From NCBI GenBank assembly GCA_002712305.1, contig PATE01000054.1, forward strand, positions 26,770 through 38,878: a stretch of 12,109 nucleotides of DNA, read 5' to 3'. Positions 1,637 to 11,941 of this stretch are shown in pieces. The notes under the pieces were generated by a model. That model did no database searches. It had not been told where the DNA came from and saw only the letters and a list, made by a program, of their open reading frames with translations. The position numbers were made by a program, and so were the translations under genes. This DNA is from Gemmatimonadota bacterium (GTDB lineage: Bacteria > Latescibacterota > UBA2968 > UBA8231). Each line of letters begins with the position of its first letter. The stretch's first letter is position 1.

Positions 1637-3535
1637 TCAATTGGCTGGCGTTTGGCGCTGGCCTCGGGCGTGGAGCAAGACCATCAGAGCAGAGATGTCC
1701 GCCGGTGAGACGCCACTGACCCGGGCCGCCTGACCCACCGTCGCCGGTTGCAGGCTGGCGAGTTTCTGTCGCGCCTCCGTCGACAGGGGCTGGGCCTCGG
1801 CATCGTAGTCGAAGTCGACGGGGATGCGATGTGCCTCCAGTCGCTTCAGGCGTGCGATGTCGTCGGCCTGGCGCTCCACGTAACCGGCGTATTTCACCGT
1901 CGCCTCGATATGTTCGCCCGCATCTGCCGTCAGCCTCGTCGGTGGTGGGGCGAGTTCGACGACGTCTTCGTATCGCAGTTCAGGACGACGAAGGAGCTCG
2001 ACAAGGGAGGCCGACTCTCTCAGTGGTGTCGATCCCCGCTGCCGCAGCATGTCATCGACGGCCGTGCCCGGCGCTAGTCGCTGTGATTCGAGTCTCTTCA
2101 GTTCCGCCTCCGTCTGCAGCTGTTTGTCGAGAAACCGCTGCCAGGATTCGTCGGAGACCAGGCCATGGTCCCGGCCAAAGGCCATCAAGCGCATGTCGGC
2201 ATTGTCTTCGCGCAGTTGCAGTCGGTATTCAGCGCGCGAGGTGAAGATGCGATAGGGTTCATCGGTCCCCTTGGTCACCAGATCGTCGATGAGTACGCCG
2301 ATGTAGGCATCGGCTCGATCGAGGACAAAGGGGTCTTCGCCACGTCGCTGCAAGACGGCATTGACCCCCGCCATCAGCCCTTGGGCGCCGGCCTCTTCAT
2401 ATCCCGTGGTGCCATTGATCTGTCCTGCGAAGAACAGACCCGATACGCGTTTGGTCTCGAGCCAGGGATGCAACTGGGTGGGGGGGGCGTAGTCATACTC
2501 TACCGCGTAGGCAGGGCGCATCATCTGCGCATTCTCCAGACCGGGTAACGAACGGAGAATCGATCCCTGCACGTGCTCGGGCAGGCTCATGGACAGACCG
2601 TTGATGTAATACTCGTGCGTGCGAATGCCCTCGGGTTCGACAAAAATCTGATGGCGATCCTTGTCGGCGAAGCGCACAATCTTGTCTTCAATGGATGGAC
2701 AGTAGCGCGGCCCCACGCCCTCGATTCGCCCACTGTACATGGCGGAGTGTTCGAGATTGCTGCGGATCAACTCGTGAGTGGCCTCACCGGTGTAGGTGAT
2801 CCAGCAGGGCAACTGTGGAAGCTGCGGTGTATCGATGGCATAGGAGAAGGTCCTGGGAGGATCGTCCCCGGGCTGAATCTCCATCGCATCAAAATCGATC
2901 GTGCGACCATTGACGCGTGGCGGAGTTCCAGTCTTCATCCGTCCCGTTTCGAATCCCAGGCTCACGAGACCCTCCGCGGCGGCGACAGCGGCTGTCTCAC
3001 CGGCTCGTCCAGCGGCATAGTTCACATCACCGACATGGATCTTGCCCCGCAGGAAGGTTCCCGTCGTGAGCACGACGGTTTTGCTGAAGTAACGGATGCC
3101 ACCCCGCACTCCGACACCGCGAACATGCCCTTTCTCGACGAGCAGCTCCTCCATCAAGCCCTGACGAACGTGGAGGTGCTGTTCGCCCTCGCAGGCGTAT
3201 TTCAGCTCGAATTGATAGACCTTCTTGTCACACTGGGCACGGGATGCGCGCACGGCGGGGCCCCGTCGCGTGTTGAGGCGCCGAAACTGAATCCCCGCCA
3301 GATCAGTGTTGATGGCCATCTGCCCACCGAGAGCATCGATCTCTTTGACCATGTGTCCCTTGCCGATCCCACCGATGGCCGGATTGCAGGACATTTGCCC
3401 GATCGTATCGAGGTTGATCGTGAGTAGAAGGGTCGTTGCCCCCATGCGGGCGGCGGCGAGCGCCGCTTCAGTCCCCGCGTGTCCTCCACCCACGACGATG
3501 ACATCGTAGGCCGGATGATCGGCCGACTCAGACAT
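1637..3535 (-). CDS. mnmG: tRNA uridine-5-carboxymethylaminomethyl modification enzyme MnmG (GidA)
   Basis: MnmG, with the GTPase MnmE, installs carboxymethylaminomethyl at U34 of certain tRNAs using 5,10-methylene-THF, FAD and NADH. The product is 632 residues, close to the E. coli length. Visible motifs are the N-terminal FAD site [10 protein letters not shown] (about 14-23), [12 protein letters not shown], the TTGTFLRG segment, [19 protein letters not shown], the [13 protein letters not shown] region, and the C-terminal helical domain with [13 protein letters not shown] at 3535 is chosen because it gives a normal N-terminus, has GGAG 7 nt upstream, and overlaps the preceding stop in ATGTCTGA. 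A longer reading from 3574 adds an unlikely Arg/Pro-rich extension. It is the last gene of the minus-strand unit and is translationally coupled to the PF13769-type gene. Identity is certain. Confidence 0.97.
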
Positions 3536-3860
3536 CCTCGGGCTCCGTGGTGAGCGTCGGTGTGTCACGGGCATCTGGTTCTTGGGCCTCTGGTTCTTGG
3601 GTTTCAGGGGCGTGGTCGGCGATCAACTGGTCGACGGTCTGACGCAGAAGCTGCTGGGCATCTCCTTCACATTCCTGCTTCGAGGACCAGTTCCACTGGG
3701 CAAGGTATTCGTCGGTGCCGGCCAGTCCCTCGCGCATGGCGATACGATCGATGTGCTGCTGGAATCGATCGGGAAGCTGCTCGGTCAGGGGACGGCGGCC
3801 ATCGAAGACGCGGACCTGCGCTGGGATCTGGCGCCAATAGAGAATCTGTATCTGTGGCAC
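3528..3860 (-). CDS. Small 'virulence factor' family protein (PF13769-type), C1/corrinoid cluster associated
   Basis: This 110-residue cytoplasmic protein has the recognisable family pattern: [11 protein letters not shown] (residues 5-15), then [25 protein letters not shown] and a WNW segment, followed by an acidic tail. From recall the family is named 'virulence factor' in Pfam, but its members commonly sit beside metF, methyltransferase and corrinoid genes in bacteria with no link to disease. The name should not be taken literally and the molecular function is not established. The start is GTG at 3860, 15 nt after the homocysteine methyltransferase stop; the start of mnmG overlaps its stop by 8 nt. 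The tail holds a repeated QEP motif from a 15-bp tandem duplication. Its place in the operon supports a role in methyl or C1 metabolism. Family call is good; function unknown. Confidence 0.82.
3574..3601. repeat. Imperfect 15-bp tandem duplication inside the PF13769-type gene
   Basis: tctggttcttggg occurs at 3574-3586 and again at 3589-3601, a period of 15 bp (five codons). It encodes the repeated EPEAQEP/TQEP residues of the acidic tail. It is probably a small replication-slippage expansion in an unstructured region. Confidence 0.8.
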
Positions 3861-3875: not shown

Positions 3876-4871
3876 TTAGGCGTCGAGGACGGCGCGGAAG
3901 GCACCGATGTGCTCTGGCGTGGTGCCACAGCAGCCGCCGACCATCCACGCCCCCGTCGCCAGCAGAGCAGGCAACTCGGCGCTCATCTGATCGGGGTCCT
4001 GCAGGTAATAGGTCTCCTTCGTCTGCCGATCCATCTTTGGCAGTCCCGCGTTGGGATAGGCCGCCAGGCGCAAGCCGTCGAGACCCCGCTGTGCCAGGGC
4101 TTCGGAGGTCTGCCGAGTACCCTCGATGGCGTAGGCCATCCCCGAGTGATCCTCTCTGCTTGCTTCCGCGCCACAGTTGAGACCAAGCATGTGGATGGAC
4201 GGGAGCAGGTCGACGCCATCGGAGTGTGCACCGGATGCCAGAATGTCAATGGCATCCGGTGGGCCGTGGCCCCAGTCGGTCTTGTATTGAATCTGCTTCG
4301 TCTTGCGGTCCTGCGTGAACTTGTACGTCAGACTGACACAGATGGGCAGACCAAAATGACGAGCCACATCGACGGCGATGGCCGCTTCGCGCGCCGAGAA
4401 CATGGTCTCCACGAGGAAGAAATCAACGCCCGCGTCTGCAAGAGACGTGGCGATGCGCTCGTGTGCATCACGCACCTTGGCATCGGCAATGCCGAAGTCG
4501 GTGTCTCCCGCGTCGGCCTCGATCGCCCCCGGAGACGGGCCGAGGGCGCCGGCGATATAGATCTCGCGATCTGCCGCCTCGGCGGCACGACGAGCATGTT
4601 CGGTGGCCAGGACGGCAAGCTGTTCAGGGCTCGCGTCTCCCGCGTCGGCCATCTCCAGATGCAGCGGGGAGGCGACGAAGGTGTTCGTCTCGATCACCTC
4701 CGATCCTGCCGTCACATACGCTCGATGTACGTCGACGACGGCCTCTGGATGTGATCGGTTGGCCAGTGCCGAATTCGGCAACTCCACGCCTCGGGCGAAC
4801 AACTGCGTACCAAAACCCCCATCGAACAGCAGGGGGCGGTCATCTTGGAGGCGAGCTGCGAATCGGGACAA
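3876..4871 (-). CDS. Homocysteine S-methyltransferase family protein (stand-alone Zn-dependent domain)
   Basis: This 331-residue TIM-barrel protein of the Hcy-binding family (MetH N-terminal domain, BHMT, MmuM) transfers a methyl group to homocysteine to give methionine. Seen here: LLFDGGFGTQLFARGVE near the N-terminus, VIETNTF, GLNC with Cys233, and GGCCGT with Cys314/Cys315. These are the three Zn-ligand cysteines of the family, all present. The TTG at 4871..4869 is taken as the start: GAGG sits 5 nt upstream, and the longer reading from 4970 would run inside the preceding gene and add unrelated residues. The start lies 16 nt after the RACo-type stop. With a separate corrinoid protein and activator in the same operon, the likely methyl donor is the methylcorrinoid protein, giving a split methionine-synthase-like arrangement. 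Methylated thiols or betaines as direct donors cannot be excluded. Confidence 0.9.
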   Translation of the reverse strand: MSRFAARLQDDRPLLFDGGFGTQLFARGVELPNSALANRSHPEAVVDVHRAYVTAGSEVIETNTFVASPLHLEMADAGDASPEQLAVLATEHARRAAEAADREIYIAGALGPSPGAIEADAGDTDFGIADAKVRDAHERIATSLADAGVDFFLVETMFSAREAAIAVDVARHFGLPICVSLTYKFTQDRKTKQIQYKTDWGHGPPDAIDILASGAHSDGVDLLPSIHMLGLNCGAEASREDHSGMAYAIEGTRQTSEALAQRGLDGLRLAAYPNAGLPKMDRQTKETYYLQDPDQMSAELPALLATGAWMVGGCCGTTPEHIGAFRAVLDA

Positions 4872-4876
4872 AGCGA

Positions 4877-4880
4877 CCTC
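4877..4880 (-). promoter_or_regulatory. Ribosome binding site GAGG deciding a TTG start
   Basis: Read on the minus strand, GAGG is followed by 5 nt and then TTG at 4871..4869. It sits in the short gap after the stop of the RACo-type gene and supports TTG as the start of the homocysteine methyltransferase. Confidence 0.6.
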
Positions 4881-4887
4881 GTTGCAG

Positions 4888-6519
4888 TTAGGGAAGCATG
4901 GGCTGGAACATACAGCCGTCGACGAAGGCGTCGAAGAAGGTGGGGTCCGTCTCCAATTCGACGTGATCAATCTGGGGCACGATCTGTTCCAGGCGCGTGC
5001 GTCGCTGTCGATCGATCAAGACCTCACGGGCTCCTTGCAGGGCAGCGTTGCCGATTTTCTCGACGCGTTCGGCGGCGACAGGTACGATGAAGCCGATGGC
5101 CATGGCATTGTCGACGTCGATGTAGTTGGCAAATCCACCGGCCAGGTACAATCGGTCGATGCCACTCGCATCGACGCCAAACTGACGCATCAGCAGCAAC
5201 TGACCGCAGTAGTTGGCCGCCTTCGCCTGAGCAAGGTGTGAGGCATCTTCAGATGAGAAGGTAATACCGCGTGCTTCGTCGAGCAGGACCGACTGATTTC
5301 TCTCGCGCCCATCACCGATGACACCCCGTTCGGACATCATCTCTGATCTGCGCAACTCCGCCAGCAGGTCGACGAGACCGGATCCGCAGATTCCGACCGG
5401 TGCTGCGTCACCGATCACTCGACAGCCAAAGTTGCCATCTCCATCGATGGTGACACTCTCGATCGCGCCTTCATATCCGGGCATGCCATACTGTACGAGC
5501 CCTCCCTCGAAAGCCGGGCCCGCAGGCGAGGAGGCCGCCAACATGCGGCCCTTTCCCGCGATGATGACCTCTGTGTTGGTGCCCACATCTACCAGCATGA
5601 CGATCTGGTCGTCCGGTGGCTCGAGCAGATCGATGGCGACCAGGTCGGCGGCCGTATCGGCGCCTACATGGCTTGCGATCAGGGGCAAGCCGTAGACACG
5701 CGTATGAATGTTGGCCCGCAGACCGAGTCGTCGAGAGCGTTCAACCACCGCTGTCGTACCACGCTCGCCGTTGCGGAAGGCTTCCTCCACCGTGGACTTG
5801 TACGGTCGCGTTCCGATGGGCTGCACATCCAGCCGAAAAAGGAGGTCGCGCATGGTCGAGTTGCCGGCGATGGTGATTTCGTAGATCTCCTGGCGCCGGA
5901 AGCCGAACTTTTCGCCCATATTGGCAATGTGGCGATTGATCGCAGTTGTGACCGCCTTCTGCAACTCGCCGTGGTGCGGGCCCCCGTCGTAGGAGATCCG
6001 ATTCATCACATCGGAGCCACCGAAGCGCTGAGGGTTCTCAAAAGCCACCACCGACAGACTGTCTCCGGTCAGCAGATCGATCAACTCCATGACGATCGTC
6101 GTCGTACCCAGGTCAACGGCAAGGCCCAGGACATGCCCACGAAAGGTGTCTACCCGTTCGCCGTCGTAGTACACGTTTGTGCCGTCGAGGGTCACCATGG
6201 GGTTGAGGTCGACCTCCCGTGACTGGCTGGCAGACAGGATCTGCGGGGTGCGACGCAGGGGGGTGAACCGTACGTCAGTTCCCTCCTCCTCGATCCGCGC
6301 CTGACACGCAAGTCGGTAGGGCGGGGAGAGGAAGGACTCTGCCTGGGTGAGGGGGGAGAGTTGCTCTGCGCCCTGCTCGACAGCCACGACGCACTCGTGG
6401 CAATAGCCATTTCGCAAGCAGGAGGTCGGTACCTGCACCTGCAGGTCATCGGCGTAGTCGAAAAGCGTTCGTCCCTTGATCAGTGGCAGTCTCTGATCCC
6501 CACACCCCACATCAGCCAT
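4888..6519 (-). CDS. RACo-type corrinoid activation protein (2Fe-2S ferredoxin domain plus ASKHA ATPase)
   Basis: This 543-residue protein is expected to couple ATP hydrolysis to reduction of inactive Co(II) corrinoid to Co(I). Residues about 1-90 form a ferredoxin domain with the C-X5-C-X2-C-X28-C cluster set Cys34, Cys40, Cys43 and Cys72. The ASKHA part follows, with nucleotide-site motifs DLGTTT (136-141), DVGTNTE (311-317), SSPAGPAFEGG (330-340), GICGSGL (377-383) and YLAGGFANYID (458-468). It is shorter than the roughly 600-630 residues I recall for acetogen RACo proteins, so the linker or middle region is compact. ATG at 6519 overlaps the upstream stop in ATGGCTGA. It lies three genes after the MtaA-like methyltransferase and two after the corrinoid protein, its likely partner. 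The fold and role are well supported; the exact partner is inferred from context. Confidence 0.92.
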   Translation of the reverse strand: MADVGCGDQRLPLIKGRTLFDYADDLQVQVPTSCLRNGYCHECVVAVEQGAEQLSPLTQAESFLSPPYRLACQARIEEEGTDVRFTPLRRTPQILSASQSREVDLNPMVTLDGTNVYYDGERVDTFRGHVLGLAVDLGTTTIVMELIDLLTGDSLSVVAFENPQRFGGSDVMNRISYDGGPHHGELQKAVTTAINRHIANMGEKFGFRRQEIYEITIAGNSTMRDLLFRLDVQPIGTRPYKSTVEEAFRNGERGTTAVVERSRRLGLRANIHTRVYGLPLIASHVGADTAADLVAIDLLEPPDDQIVMLVDVGTNTEVIIAGKGRMLAASSPAGPAFEGGLVQYGMPGYEGAIESVTIDGDGNFGCRVIGDAAPVGICGSGLVDLLAELRRSEMMSERGVIGDGRERNQSVLLDEARGITFSSEDASHLAQAKAANYCGQLLLMRQFGVDASGIDRLYLAGGFANYIDVDNAMAIGFIVPVAAERVEKIGNAALQGAREVLIDRQRRTRLEQIVPQIDHVELETDPTFFDAFVDGCMFQPMLP

Positions 6520-6832
6520 CGTCCTGTTCCTCAGAAGTCGATCGCGCGTCGCGCGTCTTCTTCAGCTTCGCCCGAGCCCGTTCTACGGCGTTCGGATCCG
6601 TCTCCCACGCGCTTCGGTAGTCGAATTGTCCATCGTGGCTACACAGCAGATCCTCGGTCTTGGCGACGGGCTTTTGATTCCGGCATTTGAACTTGGCTGT
6701 GCACAGATCGTGCCGGTCGCGATAGGGGCAGCGCTCGGCGGCCTGGGCATCGGCATGGGTGGCCATGTCACCAAGGATCGACGACAGACGATCAAATCGT
6801 TTCTGCACCTCAACCGGATCGATCCGGGCCAT
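6512..6832 (-). CDS. Small four-cysteine protein of unknown function in the corrinoid operon
   Basis: The 106-residue product is not recognised. Residues 1-32 look like an amphipathic helix (VEVQKRFDRLSSILGDMATHA). The middle holds CPYRDRHDLC (Cys35, Cys44), then Cys50 and Cys64 (LLCSHDG), together with His41 and His66, a set that could bind a metal ion or Fe-S cluster. The C-terminal third is rich in Lys/Arg and Asp/Glu. It has no signal peptide or membrane segment. The ATG at 6832 is 9 nt after the corrinoid protein stop, and its own stop overlaps the RACo-type start by 8 nt. That placement between carrier and activator suggests an accessory role such as redox or docking, but this is inference only. 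Confidence 0.78.
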   Translation of the reverse strand: MARIDPVEVQKRFDRLSSILGDMATHADAQAAERCPYRDRHDLCTAKFKCRNQKPVAKTEDLLCSHDGQFDYRSAWETDPNAVERARAKLKKTRDARSTSEEQDDG

Positions 6833-6841
6833 TGGCCTATC

Positions 6842-7591
6842 TCATGCGTTGATGCCGAGCAACTGCTTGGCCAGTGCCACACAGGCCAGGGCATCCTTGC
6901 CATACCCATCGGCACCCATGTCCTCGGCGAATTCCTGTGTGACGGGGGCACCACCTACCATAATCTGTACATCCTCTCGCAGATCGGCATCGATGAAGGC
7001 CTCAATCGTCTTGCCCATGTTCGGCATCGTCGTCGTCAGCAGGGCGGACATTCCCATCACCTGCGCCCCTGATTCCTCAACGGCGTCGATAAATTCATCA
7101 GCCGATGTATCTACACCGAGATCGACCACGTCGAATCCTGAGCCTCTCAACATCATATTGCACAGATTCTTGCCGATGTCGTGGAGGTCTCCCTTCACGG
7201 TGCCCATCACAATCGTGCCGGCCTTTTCGATTCCCGATGCAGAAAGAATGGGTTCGATGTGGGCCATGCCCGCTTTCATGGCTCGGGCGCAGGCGAGGAC
7301 CTCCGGAACGAAGATGAAATTCTCCCGGAACTTGATCCCCACAATCCCCATCCCCGCGATCAGGCCGTCATCCATGACCTCGAGGGCCTCGATCCCGTCG
7401 GCCAGAGCCTTCTGCGCCAATTCATCGACAAGATGATGTTCTCCCGCGATCAACGCCGCAGCCATGTCCTGGTGAATCGGACGGGCGGCGCTGAACAGGT
7501 CGATCAGCCGCTGAATCTCCTCCGGATGCTCGACGTACTCCTTGATTTCGAAGCGAATATCCTCGTTGCCGATGTCACTCAGTTCAGCCAT
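6842..7591 (-). CDS. Corrinoid (B12-binding) methyl carrier protein, MtaC/MtbC/MtgC type
   Basis: This 249-residue cytoplasmic carrier shuttles a methyl group on cobalt. Residues about 20-115 form the helical cap domain (IQRLIDLFSA...ALIAGEHHLVDELAQKAL). The B12-binding Rossmann domain follows with the diagnostic GDLHDIGKNL, where His137 is the expected lower cobalt ligand, then later elements VDLGVDTSADEF, MGMSALLTTTMPNM and MVGGAPVTQEFA with the downstream GADGYGKDA. It is somewhat longer than the roughly 210 residues typical of MtaC-like proteins, mostly through about 20 extra N-terminal residues. The ATG overlaps the MtaA-like stop in ATGGCTGA, implying coupled synthesis of enzyme and carrier. 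The family call is secure; which methyl group it carries is not shown by the sequence. Confidence 0.95.
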   Translation of the reverse strand: MAELSDIGNEDIRFEIKEYVEHPEEIQRLIDLFSAARPIHQDMAAALIAGEHHLVDELAQKALADGIEALEVMDDGLIAGMGIVGIKFRENFIFVPEVLACARAMKAGMAHIEPILSASGIEKAGTIVMGTVKGDLHDIGKNLCNMMLRGSGFDVVDLGVDTSADEFIDAVEESGAQVMGMSALLTTTMPNMGKTIEAFIDADLREDVQIMVGGAPVTQEFAEDMGADGYGKDALACVALAKQLLGINA

Positions 7592-8627
7592 TCGGGTGCT
7601 CGGCGTGCCAGGTTTTCACGGCGGCTGGGATGGCCTGCAGGTTTTCCAGTGATGTCTGCAGCGGAATCGCACACTCAGGGCCGATCAGAGGAACCCCCGC
7701 ATCAAGGTTTGCGAACACTTCAGTCTCCACGTCTTGAGGTTCTCGAGCGAACAAGGTTTCAGGATTGTTGATGTTGCCCACCAGCGCGATGCGATCCTCG
7801 ACAATCGACATCGATTCGGCCGGCGTGTTCTTCGAATCAAAGTGGAAGGCCGCCATCCCCGTCTCGGCGATATACTGCATCCGATCTACTGTCCGGCCGC
7901 AGATATGAAGGATGATGGGACAGGACAGACTCTGGGCAAACTCGATATGCAGATCGCGTAGATAACGCTCGTAGTATTCGCCACTGACAAGGTCACCCGT
8001 GGCGTGATCGGGCAGGGTGAGTGCGTCGGCTCCGGCTTCGATCTGAGCGATACCGAAATCGACGGTTACCTGCTTCAGGTGATCAAGAATTCTGCGTGTC
8101 TGGTCAGGGTCGTCGAGGGACATCAGCAAGAAGGCTTCGACACCGAAGCAGTGGTAGGCAAGCGACCAGGGGCCCATGGTCTTGCCAATGATGGCGACCT
8201 CGTCCCCGTAGTCGCGGCGCAGCAAGCGAATCGCTTCCAGCACACAACTCGTGTCGGGGTGAGTCAGCAGATCCTTGGGGATCTCGATGTCCTGCGCCGT
8301 TTTCCAGATCGGCTGACTCATGCGTACGGTGGGCCAGTTGTCCTTCTGCTCCCACTGGATGTTGCAGCCCAGGGCAGAAGACTCCTGGATGATGCTGAAG
8401 ACGGGCATGACCGAGTCGAATCCGAGTTCGGTGTAGCCCGTGGCCGCCAATCGTGCCATGCGTTCAGGTTCACGATTGGCCTGTGGAAAGGGTGCATCTA
8501 CAAGATCCATCAGTTCCACAGTCGCCACGGATGTCGGATTGCAGATCGGCGTGCGATCCGTCGCTTCGCCACGCAGGGCGGCCAATACACGTTGGCGGCC
8601 ATTCATGGATGCCGGAGCGCTTGTCAT
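7584..8627 (-). CDS. MtaA/CmuA-like corrinoid methyltransferase (uroporphyrinogen decarboxylase fold)
   Basis: The 347-residue protein belongs to the UroD superfamily branch that includes MtaA, MtbA and CmuA, which move methyl groups between corrinoid proteins and thiols or other acceptors. Evidence: NGRQRVLAALRGEATDRTP at the N-terminus, GPWSLAYHCFG, and the Zn-site pattern LHICG (His241, Cys243) with Cys319 in GPECAIP. The PxWxMRQAGR motif of true HemE is absent, so it should not be called uroporphyrinogen decarboxylase. The start at 8627 has AAAGGA 5 nt upstream; a longer reading from 8807 would overlap the preceding gene and lacks family sequence. It lies 10 nt after the duplicated-motif gene and overlaps the corrinoid gene by 8 nt. 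It may demethylate an unknown methyl donor or methylate a thiol; the direction is undetermined. Confidence 0.9.
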   Translation of the reverse strand: MTSAPASMNGRQRVLAALRGEATDRTPICNPTSVATVELMDLVDAPFPQANREPERMARLAATGYTELGFDSVMPVFSIIQESSALGCNIQWEQKDNWPTVRMSQPIWKTAQDIEIPKDLLTHPDTSCVLEAIRLLRRDYGDEVAIIGKTMGPWSLAYHCFGVEAFLLMSLDDPDQTRRILDHLKQVTVDFGIAQIEAGADALTLPDHATGDLVSGEYYERYLRDLHIEFAQSLSCPIILHICGRTVDRMQYIAETGMAAFHFDSKNTPAESMSIVEDRIALVGNINNPETLFAREPQDVETEVFANLDAGVPLIGPECAIPLQTSLENLQAIPAAVKTWHAEHPNG

Positions 8628-8632
8628 CGTGG

Positions 8633-8638
8633 TCCTTT
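8633..8638 (-). promoter_or_regulatory. Ribosome binding site AAAGGA for the MtaA-like gene
   Basis: On the minus strand AAAGGA precedes the ATG at 8627 by 5 nt and abuts the stop of the upstream gene. It settles the start against the longer in-frame reading. Confidence 0.7.
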
Positions 8639-9312
8639 CATCGCTGCGCACTGGGGGCAGCCAACACGCCTCGGGCGGCGGCGGCCTCTTGTTCACGGAC
8701 CAGGGCCCGTACGTTGGGGGCACGTTGCAGGAGGAGGCCGACCAGAGCGTCGTGATCGTGGCCGCAGGCAAAGCTGACGCAATCGTTGAGCAGTTGACCG
8801 TCAGCATCCTCTACAGCAAGCATATCGCCGAGTTTCCGCAGGCCATTCACGATGACCCCCACGCGTCGCGCACCATTGTCGGCGTCTTCGGGTGGGTTGC
8901 CCGCTTCATCGGTTGCCTCGATGCGATACTGGCCATCACCGAGACCACGCGCCTGGATGGTCAGTCCTGATTTCCGATCGACAATGTTCAGATCGCAGGG
9001 GGTCGCCGACCCGGGCTCTGGCAATTTGCAACTTTCGAGAAAGGCGCGCTTCATCGCCAACAGATGATCCTGTCCGCAGTCGAAACACAGACACGTTGGG
9101 CCGCCTTGACCGGGTTGCAGGCCACCCAATCGGCAGATTCCGTCGACCACGTCCATGACTCGCTGCTGGGCACCGGGCAGTTCAGAGTAGGAATGAGCGC
9201 GATACTCGGGTGGATTCTGCTCGGTGCGATACAGGGCAATACTGATATCCTGATGGTGCGGATCCATCGAATGGAGTTCGACACGACGCCCCAGGTCAAG
9301 GAGACGACTCAT
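8638..9312 (-). CDS. Unrecognised protein with two copies of a C-x2-F-x-C-G-x-D-H domain
   Basis: The 224-residue product matches no family I recognise. It contains an internal duplication. Copy 1 runs about residues 22-95 with VVDGICRLGG (55-64) then CLCFDCGQDH (74-83); copy 2 about 115-205 with IVNGLRKLGD (154-163) then CVSFACGHDH (178-187). In both the motif is C-x2-F-x-C-G-x-D-H followed by a helix of the LLAMKRAFLE / ALVGLLLQRA kind. The repeat offset is 104 residues at the motif. Two Cys and one His per copy suggest a metal-binding or redox site, but that is inference. There is no signal peptide. The ATG has GAGAGGG 5 nt upstream and overlaps the GHL10 stop in ATGA; the MtaA-like start follows its stop by 10 nt. 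Its position suggests a helper or regulator of the methyltransferase system. Confidence 0.85.
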   Translation of the reverse strand: MSRLLDLGRRVELHSMDPHHQDISIALYRTEQNPPEYRAHSYSELPGAQQRVMDVVDGICRLGGLQPGQGGPTCLCFDCGQDHLLAMKRAFLESCKLPEPGSATPCDLNIVDRKSGLTIQARGLGDGQYRIEATDEAGNPPEDADNGARRVGVIVNGLRKLGDMLAVEDADGQLLNDCVSFACGHDHDALVGLLLQRAPNVRALVREQEAAAARGVLAAPSAQR

Positions 9313-10933: not shown

Positions 10934-11941
10934 TCAGCCGTCGATGAGTGTCCGGTTAATGAACTCGGTGATGTCCTCGATCTTCGCGAGTTCCGTGAAC
11001 ATCAGGCTTTGGCAGATCCGATAGGTGATGTCACGGAAATCGTCGTCCGCCTCCACCACAGGTGCACGTCCCGCCACCAATGCCAGCAAGAGGATCCCGA
11101 AATCACTCAACGCATCGCGCTCTACATCGGCGGCCTTCGGATATTCGGCGATGCGGAAATAGGACATCCAGAACACATTGATGGCTTCCAGGAAGGCTGC
11201 CTTCTGTTGATGATTGAGCATCGCCTTGAGGCACAGATCGGCCGCATAGAAACCCAGGTCGAAAGAAGGCTGGCCGTAGTGGGCGGTGGCGAAGTCGACC
11301 AGATACAGTTGGCCGTTGTTCACATAGACATTGCAAGGCCGCAAGTCAGCCAACACCAGGCAACGGCCGGGTTTTATCAGGTCCTTGGCGCGGCCCTCCA
11401 CCTGCTTCTGAATGTCCGGATAGGACTTGGCTACACTCTCATACAGAGGTTGGATGCGCAGTTGCTCAAAGGCCTTGAGATCCTTGAACATGGTCTTCAC
11501 TTCGTTCACACCCGCCGTCAGGTTGTGAACGGAGGCGAGCAATTCACCCGCCTGGGCGGCGATCTGCAGATCGACGCGCCCACCAACGAGCTCGCTATCC
11601 CACAGAACGGCATCTTTGGATGGCCCCGTGGTGACGAGGACAAAATTCGTGCGGTCTTCACTCAGCGCATCGGGGAAGATGTCCGGGGGCAGGATATTGG
11701 CAAGGATCTCAATACAATTCTTCTCGGCAAAGATGCGTTTGCGATCCGTCCACCAGCGTTCCTTGATCATGACACGTGAGTGCGCCTGTTTTACGATCAA
11801 TCGCTGTTCAGGTGTCGTGACCTCGTAGACCTGGTTTTTCAGCCCATCGCCGATCTGACGCATGTCGAGGATCGGTTCGCTTGAGCCGATACACTTCTTC
11901 TTACGCAGGTAGCCGGTAAGATTGTTCTTGTTCAGATTCAT
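10934..11941 (-). CDS. Aminoglycoside-phosphotransferase-fold protein, methylthioribose-kinase-like, with altered catalytic loop
   Basis: This 335-residue protein has the APH/choline-kinase-like fold. Seen: nucleotide loop GDGLKNQVYEV (31-41), LIVKQA with Lys51, a following RIFAEKN with Glu73, then LVLADLRPCNV in place of the usual HGDLHPGN (Asp199 and Asn204 kept, the His position is Leu197), and VDFATAHYGQPSFDLGF with metal-binding Asp216. The VKQA start and the DFxxAxYGxxxFDxG block most resemble methylthioribose kinase (MtnK), whose product feeds methionine salvage, but the loop differs from MtnK HGDLHTG. It may be an active small-molecule kinase or a modified one. The ATG overlaps the lipA stop by 4 nt and a GGGA lies 7 nt upstream. 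The substrate cannot be read from the sequence. Resistance to aminoglycosides is not implied. Confidence 0.78.
   Translation of the reverse strand: MNLNKNNLTGYLRKKKCIGSSEPILDMRQIGDGLKNQVYEVTTPEQRLIVKQAHSRVMIKERWWTDRKRIFAEKNCIEILANILPPDIFPDALSEDRTNFVLVTTGPSKDAVLWDSELVGGRVDLQIAAQAGELLASVHNLTAGVNEVKTMFKDLKAFEQLRIQPLYESVAKSYPDIQKQVEGRAKDLIKPGRCLVLADLRPCNVYVNNGQLYLVDFATAHYGQPSFDLGFYAADLCLKAMLNHQQKAAFLEAINVFWMSYFRIAEYPKAADVERDALSDFGILLLALVAGRAPVVEADDDFRDITYRICQSLMFTELAKIEDITEFINRTLIDG

Follow-up and report, generated by a model that had tools for sequence, protein, structure and literature searches.

A reverse-strand gene in the window (the whole stretch of DNA analyzed here, 12,109 nucleotides) encodes an internally duplicated protein of an undescribed family, which is functionally linked to the neighboring UroD-type methyltransferase. 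We put at about even the chance that this protein serves that SCMT-type enzyme as a dedicated, non-corrinoid accessory subunit, working through the mechanism proposed below. Corrinoid methyltransferase systems are usually described as consisting of a methyltransferase, a corrinoid protein, and an activase; an additional conserved subunit associated with one UroD-type enzyme would add a new component to this scheme, found in the mostly uncultured Latescibacterota and Poribacteria. In our best reading, the subunit is new and the system that it serves is of an already known kind, a corrinoid methyltransferase system.

A real gene of an undescribed family

8638..9312 (-): duplicated F-x-C-G-x-x-H protein, ORF of 224 amino acids with homologues in other genomes

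As had been noted in the preliminary description of this DNA, the gene overlaps the GHL10 stop and ends 10 nt before the UroD/MtaA-like gene. The overlap amounts to 4 nt, the ATG of the UroD/MtaA-like gene is at position 8627, and the gap contains a Shine-Dalgarno-like AAAGGA. Taking a score above the curated cut-off or an E value below 0.001 as the threshold for membership in a curated family, we found no match for the protein in Pfam, NCBIfam, PHROGs, or PADLOC, nor any among PDB sequences. Its relatives had no match in Pfam either, the DUF1638 profile (PF07796) matched neither the protein nor its relatives, a scan of viral contigs returned no relative, and no description of the protein was found in the literature searched. 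This is thus a real gene of an undescribed family, and the initial failure to recognize the family was borne out; a strong match of both halves to a known characterized family was likewise not found in family, PDB, or fold searches, the last covering the whole model and the C-terminal half.

A search through 84,980 species genomes turned up 138 homologues, and the best 80 of these 138 were fetched. Their record titles name Latescibacterota or Gemmatimonadota, Poribacteria, Acidobacteria, a few Alpha- and Betaproteobacteria, and one member of the Acidimicrobiia, with the reservation that titles of metagenome-assembled genomes can be wrong. Of 100 whole genomes, 44 had a homologue, all of them inside the host class; within the host phylum, Latescibacterota, 64 genomes were searched, and the homologue was present in 44. 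In the phylum of L088, a relative titled Acidobacteria, it was found in just 3 of 297 sampled genomes, and two of these three homologues are divergent, at about 32 to 35% identity.

The two halves are homologous and share a fold of their own

The two halves, in which the related stretches VVDGICRLG and VIVNGLRKLG occur, had been proposed to be copies of each other, and profile comparisons agreed. Aligning the N-half with the C-half profile by hhalign gave a probability of 96.8% over 55 columns, and an HMM of the N half scored C halves with a median of 22.2 bits, compared to a maximum of 6.2 bits for 1,000 shuffled sequences, 39 of 40 C halves lying above the best shuffle. With the motif masked, the HMM still ranked 32 of 40 C halves above the shuffles, which argues that the homology of the halves extends beyond the motif. 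By these profile comparisons, the protein is the product of a true internal duplication and not of chance resemblance.

The AlphaFold2 model of the whole protein was confident except for the tail (pLDDT 85.9, pTM 0.82), and that of the C half reached a pLDDT of 91.1. Each half is modeled as beta-beta-beta-alpha-beta-(beta)-alpha, with the Cys-His pairs immediately preceding the last helix. Neither the whole model nor the C half gave a Foldseek match with an E value below 0.001, the weak matches being EutL, urea carboxylase, HIT, and type III secretion chaperones, and VIA-align gave Z scores of at most 6.5 for the same two queries, with weak HIT matches near 5.

8641..8673 (-): candidate docking segment, the C-terminal tail RGVLAAPSAQR, nearly invariant and modeled with a pLDDT below 50 from residue 216 on

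Near invariance combined with low model confidence would suit a docking segment, and we regard the tail as a candidate for such a role.

A putative Cys2His2 site formed by both halves

9064..9078 (-): first core motif, C79-G-Q-D-H83, in the N-terminal half
8752..8766 (-): second core motif, C183-G-H-D-H187, in the C-terminal half
L128, 8001-8642: homologue without the four Cys/His ligands
L130, 7911-8642: homologue without the four Cys/His ligands

In the window protein, C74-x2-F77-x-C79-G-x-D82-H83 and C178-x2-F181-x-C183-G-x-D186-H187 are spaced 104 residues apart, and the fact that each copy has two Cys, an Asp, and a His had been taken to indicate a conserved metal or redox site. This description is accurate for the window sequence, and a Cys/His site is indeed conserved, but the ligand set is a different one in the family. 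C79, H83, C183, and H187, which make up one Cys plus one His in each half, are individually retained by 79 of the 81 homologues, whereas position 74 is mostly Leu or Arg, Cys is found at position 178 in only 5 of the 81, and Asp occupies positions 82 and 186 in 10 and 6 of them, respectively. Since the outer Cys and the Asp vary in this way, C-x2-F-x-C-G-x-D-H was rejected as a functional unit; judging from the 81 homologues, F-x-C-G-x-x-H forms the core that both halves have in common.

The two exceptions, L128 and L130, are Acidobacteriota homologues of one lineage in which all four residues are replaced (by Ala, Leu, Asn, and Ile) and the remainder of the protein is kept. Both are single-copy genes in a conserved operon, adjoining a UroD gene whose zinc site is intact. 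That the four ligands were lost together points to one Cys2His2 site common to both halves rather than to one site per half, and it suggests that the halves jointly form this single putative site, the concerted loss being seen in two sequences of one lineage and probably representing one event. The completeness of the loss also favors a fold-stabilizing over a catalytic role and suggests that the Cys2His2 set could be structural rather than perform chemistry, again on the basis of what was probably a single event.

The two divergent Acidobacteriota members keep both F-x-C-G-x-x-H motifs as well as D17, H19, Y42, S43, and R51, and are altered at R89, C95, K96, R197, and the APS tail. C95, considered as a fifth ligand, is absent from these members and was dropped. 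Many polar residues beyond the Cys/His set are invariant in the family, and the five that persist even in the divergent members would fit a metalloprotein that processes or delivers the substrate, in which D17, H19, Y42, S43, and R51 and the Cys2His2 set would bind or convert the methyl donor before its demethylation by the UroD enzyme. No match to an enzyme family or fold rose above noise, however, and one lineage still keeps the gene after losing the Cys2His2 set, so that we regard this explanation as doubtful.

Two Cys and two His also constitute the ligand set of Rieske clusters. With a Rieske-like [2Fe-2S] cluster or some other redox metal as its cofactor, the protein might accordingly serve as a redox partner, supplying the corrinoid protein or the activase with electrons in the place of DUF1638. 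DUF1638 is needed in the split methionine synthase of Phaeobacter (PMC5764234), and it is missing from 38 of the 44 phylum genomes that carry the duplicated protein and from 20 of 24 other genomes with it. Nevertheless, the two coexist in 6 of the 44 and 4 of the 24, 10 genomes altogether, and many genomes without the duplicated protein also lack DUF1638; a simple replacement of DUF1638 is weakened by both observations and is one possibility only. The boxes themselves, C-x3-H twice, differ from the C-x-H and C-x2-H of Rieske proteins, and another type of 2Cys-2His cluster would be compatible with the sequence. If the redox center were essential, the loss of all four residues from an operon that is otherwise kept would be difficult to explain, and where the operon is split, the gene accompanies that of the UroD enzyme rather than those of the activase or the corrinoid protein. 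Taken together, we find a role as redox partner unlikely.

The gene is paired with that of a UroD-type methyltransferase

7584..8627 (-): UroD-family methyltransferase of the MtaA/CmuA type (SCMT-like), zinc ligands His-Cys-Cys, start codon at 8627; identified by profiles, near-obligate neighbor

The downstream enzyme falls into the MtaA/CmuA subfamily (TIGR01463, 248.9 bits against a cut-off of 235.4) and aligns along its full length with MtaA (4ay7). Its ligands are almost invariant, with H240 kept in 78 of 78, C242 in 77 of 78, and C318 in 77 of 77 sequences. His-Cys-Cys is typical of S- and Se-methyltransferases in the UroD superfamily (Kountz and Balskus, PMC10418091), and on this analogy our guess is that the donor is a methyl-sulfur or methyl-selenium compound.

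Among the best 80 of the 138 relatives, which span several phyla, the UroD gene follows that of the duplicated protein in 79 loci and is about 73 to 91% identical to that of the window; L097 has no UroD gene nearby. In 75 of these 79 loci the two genes are within 200 nt of each other (median gap, 14 nt), with gaps of 0.3 to 1.5 kb in some relatives. Presence of the two genes also coincides: a UroD orthologue (74 to 100% identical) is found in precisely those 44 of 64 phylum genomes that carry the duplicated protein and is absent from the other 20 (Fisher P = 5e-17, uncorrected for kinship among genomes), the next best UroD in genomes outside the 44 being 46% identical. Four UroD genes of 44 to 46% identity, from genomes without the duplicated protein, had no member of the family in their neighborhoods. 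In Poribacteria, the duplicated protein and UroD genes are paired, and the corrinoid protein and homocysteine methyltransferase are encoded on other contigs or far off. The divergent Acidobacteriota members again precede a UroD gene, 66 to 68% identical.

GHL10 lies beside the gene in just 4 of the best 80 loci and is outside the conserved unit. This, together with the pair that stays intact in Poribacteria when the rest of the operon is elsewhere, indicates that the UroD enzyme, and not the whole operon, is the partner in this pairing. The original assignment of the gene to the methyltransferase operon was therefore narrowed to a strong link with the UroD enzyme specifically. Adjacency and co-occurrence establish a functional linkage between the two proteins, which is to be distinguished from physical binding. 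The partner-subunit reading draws on this evidence, from the 79 of 80 loci, the shared 44 of 64 genomes, and the Poribacteria pair to the divergent members that keep the motifs and precede a UroD gene, as well as on the near-invariant zinc ligands that mark S/Se-methyltransferases.

So strict a pairing with one zinc enzyme could also be that of a metallochaperone delivering zinc to the His-Cys-Cys site, or of a chaperone for UroD folding or assembly, and the C half does bear a weak resemblance to type III secretion chaperones (best Foldseek E value 0.07, not significant). Other UroD-type zinc methyltransferases have been described without such a helper (PMC10418091), though, and L128 and L130 lost the metal site while the zinc ligands of their UroD enzymes remain, which makes a chaperone of either kind unlikely in our view.

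The rest of the operon and related systems

6842..7591 (-): MtgC-like corrinoid protein (NF047996, 205.8 bits, under the cut-off of 370)
6512..6832 (-): small four-cysteine protein, fused to the activase N terminus in other genomes
4888..6519 (-): RACo/RamA-like reductive activase with 2Fe-2S domain (profile matches)
3876..4970 (-): homocysteine S-methyltransferase (PF02574, profile match)
3528..3860 (-): small PF13769 protein recurring in the operon (profile match)

The four-cysteine protein (106 amino acids, no family) has C35, C44, C50, and C64 invariant in 24 of 24 sequences, and 29 of 30 long activases carry its domain as an N-terminal fusion; the protein is thus probably a metal-binding domain of the activase. 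The homocysteine methyltransferase ORF begins about 33 codons upstream of the starts of its homologues, so its true start is probably internal. The PF13769 protein, named "virulence factor," occurs in 23 of the best 80 loci, often beside the homocysteine methyltransferase, and would more likely be a one-carbon accessory than a virulence factor.

The UroD and homocysteine enzymes are the only methyltransferases of the window operon. The window genome, which is 91% complete, holds a single PF00809 protein, probably a dihydropteroate synthase, and no MtgD was found in it; the UroD enzyme is thus the likeliest donor-side enzyme, an absence at 91% completeness being no proof.

The operon resembles MtgBCDE of Ruegeria and Phaeobacter, a split methionine synthase and glycine betaine demethylase (PMC12478193, PMC5764234), in having an MtgC-like corrinoid protein, a PF02574 homocysteine methyltransferase, and a RamA-like activase, to which relatives such as L137 add MtgD-like (PF00809) and MetF2-like genes. 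Compared with the MtgCDE set, the corrinoid protein and the homocysteine methyltransferase are thus present and the PF00809 MtgD was not found in the window genome. In contrast to MtgBCDE, the donor side consists of an SCMT-type UroD enzyme and the duplicated protein in place of MtgB, and DUF1638 is usually absent. With the SCMT/Mlp systems, namely, type 1 mlp clusters (PMC10418091), it shares a UroD-superfamily enzyme, His-Cys-Cys zinc ligands, and an adjoining corrinoid protein and activase. It departs from them in having one UroD gene rather than at least Mlp2 and Mlp3, a homocysteine methyltransferase in the operon, and the duplicated protein as an extra partner; selenium genes, compared with mlp clusters, were not noticed in the loci viewed. 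As in the Cmu/Cdm chloromethane systems, a UroD-type methyltransferase works with a corrinoid protein, but CdmB is without zinc and in CmuA a single protein unites the methyltransferase with the corrinoid part (PMC13222342), whereas the UroD enzyme here has zinc ligands and a separate corrinoid protein, and we saw no described counterpart of the duplicated protein.

Proposed mechanism

Starting from the observed family, its duplication and residue conservation, the UroD pairing and co-occurrence, and the zinc-ligand signature of the UroD enzyme, we propose the following mechanism. Two homologous alpha/beta halves, arisen by tandem duplication, would join their F-x-C-G-x-x-H motifs into one Cys2His2 metal site, and the metal, most likely zinc, would hold the halves in place. 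D17, H19, Y42, S43, and R51 and the RGVLxAPSxQ tail might then mediate binding to the methyltransferase or to its substrate. Together, the UroD enzyme and the duplicated protein would take the methyl group from the donor, probably an S- or Se-methyl compound, and load it onto the MtgC-like corrinoid protein, methyl flow presumably running in this direction. The RACo-like activase with its four-Cys domain would keep the corrinoid as Co(I), and the homocysteine methyltransferase would form methionine or, in some relatives, an MtgD/MetF2 branch would pass the methyl group to folate. Knowing the donor could bring to light a route to methionine that does not depend on folate. A more far-reaching version, rather doubtful at present, is that the two proteins form a two-component methyl-donor module, of a kind not known before, in which the metal site bridging the halves takes part in handling the substrate; these bacteria could then use a methyl-sulfur or methyl-selenium compound from the environment to make methionine without folate.

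Two further genes lie close to members of the family. An APH-like kinase in the window (10934-11941, reverse strand) has S-methyl-5-thioribose kinase as its best curated match, at 55.7 bits against a cut-off of 275, and an APH-like gene lies near that of the duplicated protein in 16 of the best 80 loci; a methylthio link through this kinase is possible but weak. Finally, a GntR-family regulator is encoded divergently upstream of the gene in L088 (7085-7819, reverse strand; profile checked) and, as judged by eye, upstream in L058, L061, L099, and L104, covering several phyla, an arrangement that suggests induction by the donor.
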